A stretch of 38,717 nt of DNA, from the NCBI GenBank assembly GCA_008015325.1, contig SSFI01000115.1:1-38717 (forward strand), read 5' to 3'. The notes beneath the pieces are model-generated. The model made no database searches, was not told the origin of the DNA, and was given only the letters and a program-made list of their open reading frames with translations. This DNA is from Rheinheimera sp. GTDB lineage: Bacteria > Pseudomonadota > Gammaproteobacteria > Enterobacterales > Alteromonadaceae. This document shows, piece after piece, positions 2,282 to 17,741 of this stretch (positions within the stretch are counted from its first letter, which is position 1; each line of letters starts with the position of its first letter). A program made the position numbers and the translations under genes.

Positions 2282-2297
2282 TGCGACATTTGTCGCA
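2282..2297. promoter_or_regulatory. Probable BlaI-type operator, copy 1
   Basis: Perfect palindrome TGCGACATTTGTCGCA (two 7-base arms around TT). The inner ACA-nn-TGT core is the half-site arrangement bound by BlaI/MecI/CopY repressors. It lies 66 bases upstream of the blaI-like start and is duplicated exactly at 2315-2330. Binding is inferred from family knowledge and position. Confidence 0.7.
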
Positions 2298-2314
2298 TTT
2301 TTTGCTTGTCAATC

Positions 2315-2330
2315 TGCGACATTTGTCGCA
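2315..2330. promoter_or_regulatory. Probable BlaI-type operator, copy 2
   Basis: Exact second copy of the 16-bp palindrome at 2282-2297. The centres are 33 bases apart, close to three helical turns, which suits two dimers on one face of the DNA. It ends 33 bases before the repressor start codon, so bound protein would block transcription of the downstream operon. Confidence 0.7.
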
Positions 2331-2363
2331 GCATGACCTTATCAACCCCACAGAGAGTCGCTG

Positions 2364-2741
2364 ATGCAACCGACAGCACCTGAACTGGAAATCCTGAAAC
2401 TGCTCTGGCAACAACAACCGCAAACCGGCCGTGAACTACACGACCAGCTGGCGGATGTGTTGGACTGGAGTTATTCGTCCACCCGAAAAACGCTGGAGCG
2501 TATGGTCGACAAAGGCCTGCTGCAACTGGTGCAGCAAGGCAATCAGAACAGCTACGCTGCGCTGGTGGCCAAAGTGCCGACTCTGGCCGCGCTGGCGCAG
2601 GATTTCGCCAGCCGGGTGCTGGAACTGAAGCAACCGCTGCCACTGGCGATGTTTGCCGACAGCGCTTTGTTAAGTGCTGAGGATTTGCAGGCGCTGGAGC
2701 AACAGCTGCAACAGCTGGAGCGGGGAGACAAGCCATGCTGA
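2364..2741 (+). CDS. BlaI/MecI/CopY-family transcriptional repressor
   Basis: A 125-residue protein with the typical BlaI layout. An N-terminal winged helix (residues 5-70) contains EILKLLWQQQPQTGRELHDQ, then STRKTLERMVDKGLL for the recognition helix and wing entry. A helical C-terminal dimerisation region with a Leu/Gln-rich coiled stretch follows (about residues 95-122). In the family this protein represses a peptidase-sensor and an effector gene and is inactivated by proteolysis when cell-wall stress is sensed. The start ATG follows a CAGAGAG ribosome-binding sequence. The stop overlaps the next start by 7 bases, so the two are translationally coupled. Two identical palindromes upstream (2282, 2315) suggest autoregulation. 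Confidence 0.88.
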   Translation: MQPTAPELEILKLLWQQQPQTGRELHDQLADVLDWSYSSTRKTLERMVDKGLLQLVQQGNQNSYAALVAKVPTLAALAQDFASRVLELKQPLPLAMFADSALLSAEDLQALEQQLQQLERGDKPC

Positions 2742-4150
2742 ATCTGTTAATGCTGCTATTTTGCTGGGTGTTGTGGACCACACTACTGGCTGGCTTGTTA
2801 CAGCTTGGCCGGCATTACTCGCAGCGGCTGATAGCGGCGGCGACGCTCGCGCCGCTGTTGCTGCTGGTGTCCGTGCTGCCGTTTTTGCCCTGGCCTGAAC
2901 AAGGCGCAGTATTGCCGGCACTGTGGCTGAGTGCGCATGATCACGGCATCAGCCCGTTACTGGCATTACCGACCCATCCGGCCTGGCTGGAGCAACAACC
3001 GTTGCAGGCCTGGTTGCCGGAATTGGTTTTTTGGCTGCTGGCGGCCGGTTGTGTGCTCTCCTCTTTGCTGATGGCTCGGCAATGGCAATTGTGGCGCCGC
3101 TTGCATCAATGGTCGCTGCCGTTATCAGCGCAGCGTCTGGACGTGGTTGTCGCGCCGGAGCCGGCATTGCAGGCCGCGCTTGCGCGTCATCCGCTGCAAC
3201 TACGGCAATTGCCGCATGGCGGCAGCCCTTTTGTCAGCGGTATCCGTCGGGGCACGCTGTGGCTGCCGGACTGGTTCTGGCATTTACCTGCCGGCCAGCA
3301 GCGGCTGTTGTTATGGCATGAACTGAAGCATCTGCAGCGGCGTGACCCGTTATGGCTGCTGAGCTGGCGGCTGCTGTGCACCTTATGCTGGTTCAATCCG
3401 GCGCTGCGGCTGCTGGAGCGGCATTACCAGGCGGCGATGGAACATGCCGTTGACCACTGGGTACTGCGCCAGCATCCGGCTCAGCGCAGCACCTATGCCC
3501 GCACTTTGCTTGCAGTGATCCGTGCTCAGCAACAGGCGGTTCAGTCCGGACTTTGGCTGCAGGCCAACGCCGGTACAGGCCCGGCGCAAGTGTTACAACA
3601 ACGGCTGCAGCAGATTTTACAGCCCACACAGTTGTTGTCCGGCCGGCAGTTCGGGGTTTTAGCTCTGGCATTGATGAGCCTGAGTGTACCGGCGCTGGCG
3701 CTGAAAACTGAGCTGACAGGTCTGGCGCCAAAGCATTGGCTGCCGCCGCTGCAGCAGGGCCGGGTCGGCTCCTGGTTTGGGGAAGTGCACCGTTTTCGCC
3801 AGGGCAAACCGCATGGCGGGCTCGATTTTATTGCACCCCGTGGCACACCGGTGCTGGCTGTTGCCGCCGGCCAGGTGCTGCTCAGTGGCAGCGACAGCCT
3901 GCACCCGAATCTCGGTAATGTGGTGTTGATAGACCACGGTGGTGGTTATCAGTCGATGTACGCTCATCTCGACGCTGTCACAGTGCAGCCCGGCCAGCAG
4001 TTGCAGGCCGGTCAGTCAGTCGGCACTTTGGGCAACAGCGGCCGCACTACAGGGCCACATCTGCATCTGGAACTGATCCAGGCCGGCAAACGGATCAATC
4101 CGGCAACCTTGCTGCCTTTAAACATGATGCCAGGAGTTACGGGTGAATAA
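2735..4150 (+). CDS. M56 (BlaR1-like) / M23 fused membrane metallopeptidase
   Basis: 471 residues with two peptidase domains. The N-terminal M56 part has membrane helices at about 3-23, 33-52 and 95-115 and the zinc motif HELKH at 195-199. A probable third ligand is E236 in EHAVDHW, and a fourth hydrophobic helix lies at about 305-323. Beyond it, outside the membrane if the topology is BlaR1-like, lies a complete M23 (LytM/lysostaphin-type) domain. Its ligands are H360 and D364 (HGGLD), with catalytic histidines H411 (YAHLD) and H442/H444 (HLHLE). M56 proteins sense wall stress and cleave a BlaI repressor; M23 domains cut or bind peptidoglycan peptides. Here the M23 domain occupies the place of BlaR1's penicillin-binding sensor. 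Starts within the repressor gene after GGGGAG and overlaps the next gene by 8 bases. Confidence 0.88.
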   Translation: MLNLLMLLFCWVLWTTLLAGLLQLGRHYSQRLIAAATLAPLLLLVSVLPFLPWPEQGAVLPALWLSAHDHGISPLLALPTHPAWLEQQPLQAWLPELVFWLLAAGCVLSSLLMARQWQLWRRLHQWSLPLSAQRLDVVVAPEPALQAALARHPLQLRQLPHGGSPFVSGIRRGTLWLPDWFWHLPAGQQRLLLWHELKHLQRRDPLWLLSWRLLCTLCWFNPALRLLERHYQAAMEHAVDHWVLRQHPAQRSTYARTLLAVIRAQQQAVQSGLWLQANAGTGPAQVLQQRLQQILQPTQLLSGRQFGVLALALMSLSVPALALKTELTGLAPKHWLPPLQQGRVGSWFGEVHRFRQGKPHGGLDFIAPRGTPVLAVAAGQVLLSGSDSLHPNLGNVVLIDHGGGYQSMYAHLDAVTVQPGQQLQAGQSVGTLGNSGRTTGPHLHLELIQAGKRINPATLLPLNMMPGVTGE

Positions 4151-5330
4151 GTTGTACCGTTTTTTCCGATTTTTGCCACTGGCAGCCTGCTGTGGCTTTG
4201 CGGTTGCCGGTCAGGCGCTGGCGGCTGCCGATCCGGCGCTATCGGCGCAATTTCAGCAGCAATTTAATGTGCAGTTACAACAAGCTAAAGTACCCGGTGG
4301 CGCTTATGCCATCGTGTATCAGGACCAGGTGCTGGCACTGGGCAGTTATGGCGTGCGGGCCGTGGGTGAACCAGCGCGGGTTAATCCGGACACTGTGTTT
4401 CGTCTTGCGTCTGTATCCAAAACCTTTGCCGGCAATTTACTGGTGCAGCTGTCGCAGCAGGGGCGGCTCGATTTGCAGCAACCGCTGAAAGCCTACGTGC
4501 CGGAGTTACAGCTGAAAAATGCCAAAATCGAGCAGCAGGTCAATGTCGAAAGTGTGCTGTCACAAGGTTCCGGTTTCTGGGCCCATGCTTTTGAGGATTT
4601 GATTGAAGCCAACAAAACGCCGGCTGAAATTCTGCCGCGACTGGCCGAACTGGCGCCGGTCTGCCCGCCGCGCCGCTGTTACAGCTACCAGAATGTGTTG
4701 TTTGGTCTGCTCGGGCGGGCGGCTGAACAGTCCACCGGCAAATCCTATGAAAGCCTGGTGACAGAACGGGTATTCAGCCCGTTGCAGATGCACAACGCCT
4801 CTTATGGACTGGCTGGGTTGCTGGCGAGCCGCAATAAAGCGCTGCCGCATCAGCGCGGTGGCAAGGGCTGGCGGACAGTCAAACCCAAAGCGAATTTTTA
4901 TCGTTTTCCGGCCGCGGCCGGGGTCAATGCCAGTGCGCGTGATTTGTCGCGCTATTTGATTGCGATGCTGGGGCACCGGCCTGAAGTTTTCTCACCGGCG
5001 CTGCTCAGTCAATTACAACAACCGCTGGTGAAAATGCCGGGTAAACCGCGCTGGCCGGTCTGGCAGCAATATCGCAATGCCAGCGCTTGGTATGGACGGG
5101 GCTGGCGCATGGTGCAGTATGGCGACGACCGGTTGTATTACCACGCTGGCGTGGTCGACGGTTACCGGCCATATATCGCCTATTCACCATCGACAGGTTA
5201 TGGCCTGGTGCTGCTGACCAATGCCGAAGCCGATGTCACCGGCAAACTGGCTGGCTGGTTCTGGCAACAAGTGTTGCCGGGGCCGCAACTGGCAAAACAG
5301 CAGCAGGGGACTGCAAAAAAGCGGGGCTAA
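4143..5330 (+). CDS. Exported serine hydrolase of the class C beta-lactamase / DD-peptidase fold
   Basis: 395 residues starting at GTG 4143, preceded by AGGAG. The first 28 residues form a signal peptide ending ALA-A. The three active-site motifs of the S12/AmpC-like family are present: S90-V-S-K93 (nucleophile and base), Y182-Q-N184, and H334-A-G336 in place of the KTG box. These enzymes are periplasmic acyl-serine hydrolases, acting as beta-lactamases, D-aminopeptidases or esterases. The sequence does not decide which; HAG rather than KTG is common among esterase and peptidase members. Cysteines 173 and 179 flank the second motif. It is the last gene of the repressor-M56/M23-hydrolase operon (8-base overlap with the previous gene), so it is the likely effector induced when the repressor is cleaved. 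Confidence 0.85.
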   Translation: MNKLYRFFRFLPLAACCGFAVAGQALAAADPALSAQFQQQFNVQLQQAKVPGGAYAIVYQDQVLALGSYGVRAVGEPARVNPDTVFRLASVSKTFAGNLLVQLSQQGRLDLQQPLKAYVPELQLKNAKIEQQVNVESVLSQGSGFWAHAFEDLIEANKTPAEILPRLAELAPVCPPRRCYSYQNVLFGLLGRAAEQSTGKSYESLVTERVFSPLQMHNASYGLAGLLASRNKALPHQRGGKGWRTVKPKANFYRFPAAAGVNASARDLSRYLIAMLGHRPEVFSPALLSQLQQPLVKMPGKPRWPVWQQYRNASAWYGRGWRMVQYGDDRLYYHAGVVDGYRPYIAYSPSTGYGLVLLTNAEADVTGKLAGWFWQQVLPGPQLAKQQQGTAKKRG

Positions 5331-5404
5331 ATGAGCAGGGGCAGGCTATTGCCGATTTCGTGTGGATGGGGTTTACAGATCAGCGCCCGAACACCGCGGC
5401 TGAT

Positions 5405-15189: not shown

Positions 15190-17741
15190 CTAATGTTTCT
15201 GTAGTTGCTGCAACAGCTGTTGTTCTGCAGCATTGAGCTCAGGTCTGTTCAGGGCGCTGAGGATCTTCTTAGCCTCTGCAGTTCGCTTGAGCTGCAGCAA
15301 AGCGGCGGCGATATGCAGTTGCAGTAAGGCCGACTGCGGCTGCCGGATCTCTGCTTCGCGCAGCACGCCAAGGCCTTTTTCTGCCTGACCGGCTTTGACC
15401 AGCGCATAGCCGTACGTATCGAGAATATCGGCTTGTTCCGGCATGGCCTGGTGCGCCTTTTCCGCCCACTGCAGCGCTTGTTGTGGGTCGGTATCCAACA
15501 GCAACACCGCCAGGTTATTTTGCAAAATGGCCTGCGTCGGCAATAACGGGCTTTGTTGATAAACGGCACGGGCTTGCTCGGTGGCACCTGCTTGCTCAAG
15601 CTGTTCAGCCAGCGCCAGCGTGGCACTGAGGTCCGTTGGATGCTGTTGCAGCCAATCCTGTAACAGCTGTCGCACTACGGCCGGCTTATTGCGTTGTGCA
15701 TGCAATAACAACAATAAATGTTGTTGTGCACCGGATTGGCGAAACAGCGGTGTCAGGAGCTCTACTGCGGCCTGATTTTGATCTTGCGCCAGATAAAAAT
15801 GCGCTTTGAGTTCAGCCACTGTGCTTTGCTGCGCCTGATGATTTTCCAGCTTTTGCAATTGACGTAAGCCATCGGCATACCGTTGTTCCAGCAGGGCCAG
15901 CCGGGCCTGCAGCAGACTGAGCTGAACTTCATCGCTGTCCAGTGCCTGCAGCCGGCTCAGCGTTTTCTTCGCCCCGTTACTGTCTTTAGCGCTTAACTGC
16001 AGATCGGCGAGGTCGCGCAGCCGCCAGGACTGATCGTACCAAAGCCCATAGAGAATATCGTGCAGACGCTGCGCTTCAGCCTGGTTCTGTTGTTTCAGCG
16101 CCAGTCGCGCTTTGGCAAAATACAAATCTGCGCTGATATCGGTTTGTTCCGTCAGTTGCTCTGCCAGCGCTTTGGCTTCAGCTAACGCATTAGTTTGTAA
16201 ATACAATTCCATTAAAGCCATCCGGGCGGGTACCAGCTTTTGGTCCTGCGCGTCCAGCTGTTGTAAATAATGAATTGCCTCGCTGGCTTTCCCCAGCCTT
16301 AGCGCAGCGTCAGCCATCAGCTGCAGCACCAGCGGGTCGGCAGCATCCTTTTGCAGCAAAATCTGGTAAGACTGCATAGCGCCGCTCCAGTCCTGTTGTT
16401 GCAGTGCCAGACTGGCCATGGATAACAGACTGGGTTTGTAGGCCGCATCCAGGGTCAGCGCTTGTTGATAAAACTGTCGTGCCAGGGCAGCATCGCCAGA
16501 TTTGGCCGCGACATCGCCGGCCAGCTGGAAAATTTCCACTTTGGACTGATCAGCCTTGAGTAAATCAGCGGCAGTTTGCTGCGCATCGCCCAGTAAACCC
16601 TGCTCCAGCTGCAAATAGCCCAATACTATTAAATCCGCTTGCTGATTGTGCCCGGGTTGCTCACTCAGCAGTTGACGCGCCTTCGCGCCTTGCTGATTGC
16701 CCAGCAGGCTTTGGATATAGGCTTTACGCACCTCAGTTTGCTCTGGAAAAGCCTGGAAGGCTGTTTGCAGCACGGTTTGCTCTGCTGCGGCGTCCTGTTG
16801 GGCGCGGGCGATGGCGGCAGCGAGTAAATAAAGCTGGAAATCCGCCGGGTTGAGCTTGATGGCCTGCTGGCTGAATCCTGCCGCCGTTTTGGTATCATTC
16901 AGTTGCAGATAACTTTGGGCCAACAGCTGATGCACCTGGTAATTGGCCGGATAGAGTTTCAGTGCCCGGCGCAGTTTTAGAATGGCCTGCTCAAATTTTT
17001 CCTGGCTGAAATCCATAGTTGCGGTCAGCAATAACACATCTTCCTGCTCTTTGGCGTCTTCCGGCAGATTGTTCAGCTGCATCTGGACCTGACGCAGCAT
17101 GCGGTTTTGTTCTTTGTCATCACCCTGCAGACCAACTAATGCCGCATGGATCAGCTGGCCATATGGGTTGTAGGGGAATTTCTCCCGGTACAATACGATG
17201 CTGTTCAGGGCCTCTGCCAATTTGCCCTGTTGCTGCAGCACACGGGCTTTGCCGAGCAAAGCGATAGGGTCATTTGGGTCTTTGTTCAGCAGTTGCTGAT
17301 AGATGCGCAGCGCCTGTTCCGGCTGTTGCTGTACCAGATGTAATTGCGCCTGCAGATACTGCGCTTTAATGGCGAAGTTGCTATCTGAACGGATCGATTG
17401 CAGCAATGGTGGGATCTGAGAAAACTGCTGTTGATTTAACCGTAAATCAGCGGTTCGACCGCAGCACCGCCGTCCAGCGCCAGCTGTAATTCTTTTTCCG
17501 CACTGCTCCAGTTGCCGGCTTTGAGCAGGACCTGACCCAGCATCAGCCGGGCCGGCAAATAAGCTGGGTTTTGCTGCAGACTGTTGCGCAGCTCCAGTTC
17601 TGCTGCACGCCATTGTGCCTGCTGACTATATTGCCGGGCTTTTTCGTAATAAGCTGACGCGGTATCCGCTGCGAACACCGCTTGTGCGGCGAAAGTAGTG
17701 AACACAGCAACCAACACAGAGAGCACAGGCAATTTCATCAT
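15190..17741 (-). pseudogene. prsT: PrsT-like TPR protein of the PEP-CTERM/XrtA system, frameshifted near the N-terminus
   Basis: A signal peptide (MMKLPVLSVLVAVFTTFAAQAVFA) and the family-typical first TPR (ASAYYEKARQYSQQAQWRAA, then a LELRNSLQQNP segment) read from 17741 to a stop at 17436. The remaining roughly 740 residues, at least fifteen TPR units (e.g. QALRIYQQLLNKDPNDPIALLGKARVL, split across helices), continue in the next frame down to 15190. The break lies near 17445, at EPLIYG / LNQQQFSQ. A small deletion is likely, since the joined length (about 850) is slightly under the usual 900 or so. PrsT proteins occur with exosortase A and exopolysaccharide loci and are thought to help assemble surface polymers. 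Here only the anchor-A protein keeps it company. Confidence 0.72.

Follow-up and report, generated by a model that had tools for sequence, protein, structure and literature searches.

The window analysed here is a 38,717 bp stretch of a Rheinheimera sp. genome (assembly GCA_008015325.1, contig SSFI01000115.1). It contains an operon of three genes, which encode a BlaI-family repressor, a fusion of an M56 membrane protease with an M23 peptidase domain, and a serine hydrolase of family S12. The circuit itself is well supported by the linkage of its genes, the conservation of its operators, the presence of these operators at outlying esterase genes, and the conservation of its catalytic residues. 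We lean towards reading it as a proteolytic switch of the BlaI/BlaR1 type, in which the M23 domain would be the receptor and would read peptidoglycan or something that acts on it. Related bacteria have this switch too, with DNA sites that resemble those of the window and in many cases ahead of genes for envelope-remodelling enzymes. How Gram-negative bacteria adjust their supply of wall-cutting enzymes to the condition of the wall is, to our knowledge, a largely open question. If the reading is correct, a wall endopeptidase domain, its own protease, and a repressor in one operon would form a direct wall sensor, and the bla/mec switch would be one case of a wider scheme with an exchangeable receptor domain and output.

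A full-length fusion was identified in 19 of 22 Rheinheimera genomes, with only partial matches in G010, G012, and G014. In all 19, the BlaI gene precedes the fusion and the S12 gene follows it. The operator sequence TGYGACANNTGTCGCA is found exactly in 19 of the 22 genomes, these being the fusion-bearing set, and its reversed control is found in none of the 22. Eighteen of the 19 have an exact copy at the operon. The exception is G007, where each operon copy carries one mismatch and the exact copy is elsewhere. Three exact operators are away from the operon (in G004, G007, and G017) and all of these precede esterase genes. The same esterase family provides the fourth gene of the operon in 9 of the 18 other genus loci. 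A search of the 22 genomes identified the esterase at 16 places in 13 genomes: the nine in the operon, five elsewhere in fusion-bearing genomes, and two in fusion-less genomes. Two operator-like sites (13 to 14 of the 14 positions) are present before each of the five outside the operon in fusion-bearing genomes. No such site is before the nine in the operon or the two in fusion-less genomes, where the best match is 10 of 14. When random 430-base stretches were drawn, 13 of 14 was reached in 8 of 3000 draws and 14 in none. Three of the five out-of-operon esterases were first met via the operator, therefore only two (G006 and G013) are independent. The operator accompanies an out-of-operon esterase, and genomes that lack the switch lack the operator as well. 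The esterase was Pfam-scanned in L065, L069, and L056 and is called by sequence similarity elsewhere.

Two perfect palindromes had been noticed ahead of the operon from the sequence alone, and both are present (Table 1). In 5000 dinucleotide shuffles of positions 2156-2363, two palindromes of the 7-2-7 form occurred in none and at least one occurred in 86. Where operators are paired in other fusion loci, they are mostly 33-34 bases apart. Their conservation, together with their recurrence before the out-of-operon esterases, supports the earlier proposal that the palindromes are operators, to which BlaI is predicted to bind. There are two exact copies of the core, GCGACANNTGTCGC, in the 3.86 Mb genome, both at the operon, and 14 copies with one mismatch. 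These 16 places compare with 26 for the reversed control across the whole genome, therefore there is no excess of near-operators. A site at 15659 that matches 13 of 14 positions was considered as part of a wider regulon in the window's genome, but it is inside an open reading frame (ORF) of 807 codons, on the other strand, and was rejected.

The blaI and fusion genes overlap by 7 bases (2735-2741) and the fusion and S12 genes by 8 (4143-4150). The ORF coordinates and the Pfam scores agree with the three overlapping genes and the family calls made from the sequence alone. The fusion ORF is not an artefact, because full-length copies without an internal stop are present in G016 (65% identity) and G021 (95% identity). 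The host is a water bacterium, and its nearest relative is R. texasensis (G021; L065), in which the esterase is the fourth gene of the operon. It is missing from the operon in the window, where about 1 kb of R. texasensis sequence containing the esterase is gone at 5339-5404, which may be an assembly fault. No match to the esterase was found anywhere in the 3.86 Mb source genome at E <= 1e-15. The description of the operon as self-contained is correct for the window's genome, where the esterase is lacking, and not for the relatives, where the operator also precedes esterases elsewhere. The promoter candidate in Table 1 is weak and was identified by eye. A consensus promoter scan limited to spacers of 16-18 found none on the + strand, and the upstream regions of relatives have TTGACC/TTGCCA and TATAAT-like hexamers (by eye) at the positions of the candidate.

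Table 1. Features of the operon, with positions in the window
Feature	Position	Strand	Details
Operator 1 (predicted), TGCGACATTTGTCGCA	2282-2297	.	Perfect palindrome, 7-base arms, 2-base spacer; similar site in 45/47 other fusion loci
Promoter candidate, weak	2306-2337	+	TTGTCA (2306-2311) and CATGAC (2332-2337) flanking operator 2; spacer 20-21; by eye
Operator 2 (predicted), TGCGACATTTGTCGCA again	2315-2330	.	33 bases past operator 1; two sites in 32/47 other loci
BlaI-family repressor	2364-2741	+	125 amino acids; PF03965 (Penicillinase_R) 81.6 bits, cut-off 22.6
M56-M23 fusion	2735-4150	+	471 amino acids; four predicted transmembrane segments
M56 domain	3026-3565 (residues 98-277)	+	PF05569 81 bits; H195-E196-x-x-H199, E236, D240
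M23 domain	3809-4102 (residues 359-456)	+	Peptidase_M23 107.5 bits; H360, D364, H411, H442, H444
S12 (PF00144) serine hydrolase	4143-5330	+	395 amino acids, GTG start; 205.7 bits

The catalytic residues of the M56 and M23 domains are invariant in all 18 aligned fusions, at identities down to 28%. M23 peptidases have a zinc and catalytic set of the form HxxxD ... H ... HxH. The sequence-only reading that this set is complete holds across the alignment, and all of the M23 catalytic residues align with those of ShyA. Mean hydropathy over the alignment places membrane segments centred in residues 1-18, 39-51, 96-107, and 309-322; within M56 there is a weaker peak, at residue 215. Lysine and arginine outnumber aspartate and glutamate in the near-membrane stretches 15-34, 113-205, and 226-308, and the reverse is seen in 62-92 and 329-471. 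From this hydropathy and charge bias, the M56 protease is predicted to be cytoplasmic and both termini to be outside (Nout/Cout), with M23 in the periplasm rather than on the cytoplasmic side, where it would count against the earlier proposal. A Nout/Cout topology is reported for BlaR1 in the available sections of PMC9834060, which also describe EL1 of BlaR1 as entering the cleft of its sensor. A single-sequence AlphaFold model of the fusion had a mean predicted local distance difference test (pLDDT) score of 40.7 and was discarded. The fusion at L207 (4207-6555) has 783 amino acids, with about 300 residues past M23 that have no Pfam match.

A BlaR1-like layout, with M23 in place of the beta-lactam sensor, had been suggested from the sequence and is supported by the Pfam domains and the predicted topology. 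The circuit in the window resembles the staphylococcal BlaI-BlaR1-BlaZ and MecI-MecR1-MecA systems in its repressor family, its M56 membrane protease with a predicted Nout/Cout layout, its predicted palindromic operators ahead of the operon, and its output, a putatively secreted serine hydrolase. It differs from them in the C-terminus of the receptor, which is M23 in the window and a class D beta-lactamase-like sensor in bla/mec. The output in the window is no recognised beta-lactamase. Its gene shares an operon with the repressor and receptor genes and lies downstream of them; the bla/mec output gene is divergent, according to the available sections of PMC3305447. No class D beta-lactamase-like C-terminal sensor was found in the fusion, where residues 359-456 are Peptidase_M23. 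The blaR1_generic model scores 37.5 of 400 bits against the fusion and aligns with residues 92-296 only. The circuit appears to work like bla/mec, yet it is not classed as a BlaR1 beta-lactam receptor because the penicillin-binding sensor is missing.

Structures of MecI and BlaI are matched by the repressor profile, A3, at its positions 4-117 and 5-120, out of 127. The scissile bond of BlaI/MecI is given as N101-F102 in the available sections of PMC3305447 and PMC9834060, and in MecI this aligns with M96-F97 of the repressor. All 13 relatives compared keep F97, and the residue that precedes it is not Asn. The CopY and Bacillus BlaI models of NCBI are below their cut-offs (TIGR02698, 65.8 of 121.95; NF012168, 40.5 of 180). 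A second BlaI/M56 pair is present in the window's genome (L002/L073; G000:C104). No M23 match was found in its M56 member, which has ankyrin-like repeats (by eye) instead, and another serine-hydrolase-like ORF follows the pair.

The S12 hydrolase has the motifs S90xxK93, Y182-Q-N184, and H334-x-G336, which are invariant in 8 of 8. Its N-terminus looks by eye like an export signal, and it is predicted to be secreted. Assignment of the gene as a class C beta-lactamase was considered and rejected, with 100.4 of 415 bits for NF033085 and HxG as the third motif. The third motif of class C beta-lactamases is KTG.

A sample of 147 genomes of the family gave nine with the fusion outside the genus, one of 295 genomes of the order gave at least 10 outside the family, and one of 369 genomes of the class gave at least three outside the order. 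A phylum sample of 398 genomes added at least seven more, five of them outside the class. The order, class, and phylum searches scored four or five candidates per genome, and their counts are lower bounds. The comparison set is made up of 47 loci besides the window, all chosen for the fusion, with 18 in the genus and 29 outside it. BlaI is directly upstream of the fusion in all 47. At least one operator-like site (12 or more of 14 positions) is present in 45, with only 12 positions matched in L096, L106, and L208. A survey of how often the three genes occur together had been suggested from the sequence. BlaI and the fusion do so in 47 of 47, and the S12 gene joins them only within the genus (all 18 other genus loci); none of the 29 loci outside it has an S12 gene downstream of the fusion. 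The conserved core is BlaI plus the fusion, and the S12 output is confined to one genus in this sample. An S12-like gene (24% identity) upstream of the L104 fusion, on the opposite strand, was left out of the output count.

Other outputs are found in the 29 loci. An M23 endopeptidase is present in five, including L057, whose enzyme is below the cut-offs of both the ShyA model (463.9 against 700 bits) and the MepM model (325.6 against 341). An esterase is present in four and a lytic transglycosylase in four, two of which also have an esterase. A deacetylase is directly next in one locus, and L057 has another behind its endopeptidase. For the transglycosylase, deacetylase, and TonB classes, Pfam confirmation is restricted to L062 and L097 (MltD-like; SLT, LysM), L096 (deacetylase), and L095 and L204 (TonB receptor). 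The circuit is called wall-directed mainly because most of the recognised outputs are envelope enzymes.

Based on these similarities, a mechanism can be proposed. BlaI dimers would occupy both operators and keep the operon repressed. The M23 domain, predicted to be in the periplasm behind the last membrane segment, would engage peptidoglycan peptides, or an agent that alters them; sensing of peptidoglycan by this domain is plausible. By analogy with BlaR1, the membrane segments could relay a change in occupancy or turnover at the M23 site to the HExxH protease in the cytoplasm. The protease might then cut BlaI near M96-F97, where the scissile bond aligns. Derepression would yield more repressor, receptor, and secreted serine hydrolase, and in relatives also esterase, with the envelope as the putative target. 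In other lineages, the switch has a ShyA/MepM-type endopeptidase or lytic transglycosylase behind it. The net effect would be the on-demand production of envelope-remodelling enzymes. A bolder suggestion, which is held only tentatively, is that the fusion serves as enzyme and receptor at once: a single polypeptide would cut peptidoglycan outside and, according to substrate or turnover, its own repressor inside. The circuit would then be a gauge of wall turnover present in more than one class of Pseudomonadota, in which the operator language is shared and the envelope-remodelling outputs can be exchanged.

Several points weigh against a switch that reads the wall. Its topology, binding, ligand, cleavage, and activity are inferred, and the outputs in the genus are the S12 hydrolase and the esterase, for both of which action on the wall is likewise inferred. 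The P1 residue of the putative BlaI cleavage site is Met, where Asn is expected. In the site scan of the 47 loci, L209 and L210 have no operator; they have a different near-palindrome, CGCTACAAGTGTAGTG. Outside the genus, 3 of the 29 loci (L095, L204, and L205, all from the same class) have a TonB receptor rather than a wall enzyme. A further 14 of the 29 have no recognised output, although the output reference proteins were taken from the loci themselves and other outputs in these 14 may be missed. The wall-directed reading is to be taken with caution mainly because of these 14 blank loci and the three TonB receptors.

A stand-alone M23 gene is also associated with S12 in the genus, in a single case. 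G010 has neither the fusion nor the exact operator, and here an S12 orthologue (60% identity) is 43 bases past a stand-alone M23 gene that has a lipoprotein-like start. The clade of stand-alone M23 genes, from nine genus genomes, groups with the fusion domains with support of 93/94, which is below threshold and carries a long-branch warning. In flanks of up to 1.5 kb, none of the other eight stand-alone M23 loci showed an S12 gene, so the linkage in G010, though suggestive, is one case of nine. Within the window's genome, the M23 domain of the fusion has its closest paralogue in such a stand-alone gene (L107, 8181-8615; G000:C72; also L032). In R. texasensis the stand-alone gene is about 5 kb away from the fusion.

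It is conceivable, if unlikely, that the circuit serves in self-protection, with M23 reporting a wall-targeting natural product or the damage it causes and the S12 hydrolase and esterase destroying the compound, as a bla system would for another drug. The regulon in the genus does consist of two secreted serine hydrolases, and class C beta-lactamases and ClbP are among the S12 relatives whose structures have been solved. However, peptidoglycan endopeptidases and lytic transglycosylases are among the outputs in other lineages, and both the class C beta-lactamase score of the S12 hydrolase and its HxG motif argue against such a role. Somewhat more doubtful is the idea that M23 is mainly a working wall hydrolase, fused for co-expression, and that BlaI receives the signal in a different way, such as through a cytoplasmic muropeptide. 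The retention of the full M23 catalytic set would fit this, as would the S12 orthologue behind the stand-alone M23 gene of G010, where the fusion is absent. A peptidoglycan dipeptide is also reported to destabilise the BlaI-operator complex of B. licheniformis, in the available sections of PMC3305447. However, the M56 catalytic residues, invariant in all 18 fusions, would be needless in a mere carrier, and the M56-M23 fusion persists next to BlaI in 47 loci, albeit loci chosen for the fusion. The least probable explanation is a gauge of metal or of the envelope in general, in which zinc-loaded M23 would report a lack of zinc or the state of the membrane, with envelope adjustments as outputs; both domains are zinc peptidases by family and TonB receptors, which can import metals, are downstream in the three loci noted above (two Pfam-confirmed), but these are few and the other recognised outputs are hydrolases.

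The M23 domain of the window can also be compared with the DD-endopeptidases of ShyA/MepM type, with which it shares the aligned domain and its catalytic residues. The ShyA-like gene behind the L057 fusion has 46% identity over 101 residues to the window's M23. Unlike these enzymes, M23 in the window follows an M56 protease and four membrane segments in the same polypeptide, and the fusion lacks the LysM_OapA and Csd3_N2 domains, both of which are present in the L057 ShyA-like protein. M56 with M23 is listed among the rare architectures of M23 enzymes in PMC9662197, where a role for M56 in peptidoglycan cleavage is said not to have been demonstrated. A repressor, operator, regulon, or function for this architecture is not described in the available sections of that paper. 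It is the only source to mention M23 and M56 in one protein when its available sections are taken with those of PMC7593790, PMC5957439, PMC9834060, PMC12915585, PMC8348566, and PMC3305447. No paper on a BlaI/M56-M23 circuit was found in searches of the open-licence PMC literature, in which subscription papers are largely not included.

An origin from a mobile element was considered and set aside on the plasmid and IMG/VR matches. The fusion is matched by 3855 plasmid records, none with one place covering 80% of it, and the 15 matches listed align to the M23 part. At least 80 loci in IMG/VR match the fusion, and 79 of the best 80 start at residue 283 or later, which is the M23 part only. One locus among the matches listed, L166, aligns to residues 189-456, and no BlaI match was found in its 5.8 kb.

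Beside the operon, at 810-2155 on the - strand, are divergent genes for a response regulator, with a receiver domain only (Pfam), and a histidine kinase of 201 codons, with HisKA only. Compared with R. texasensis (L065), about 0.3 kb between these genes is missing, with the joint near 1592-1601. The two-component genes of G016 (L066) are longer, at 236 and 417 codons, and the pair in the window looks broken.

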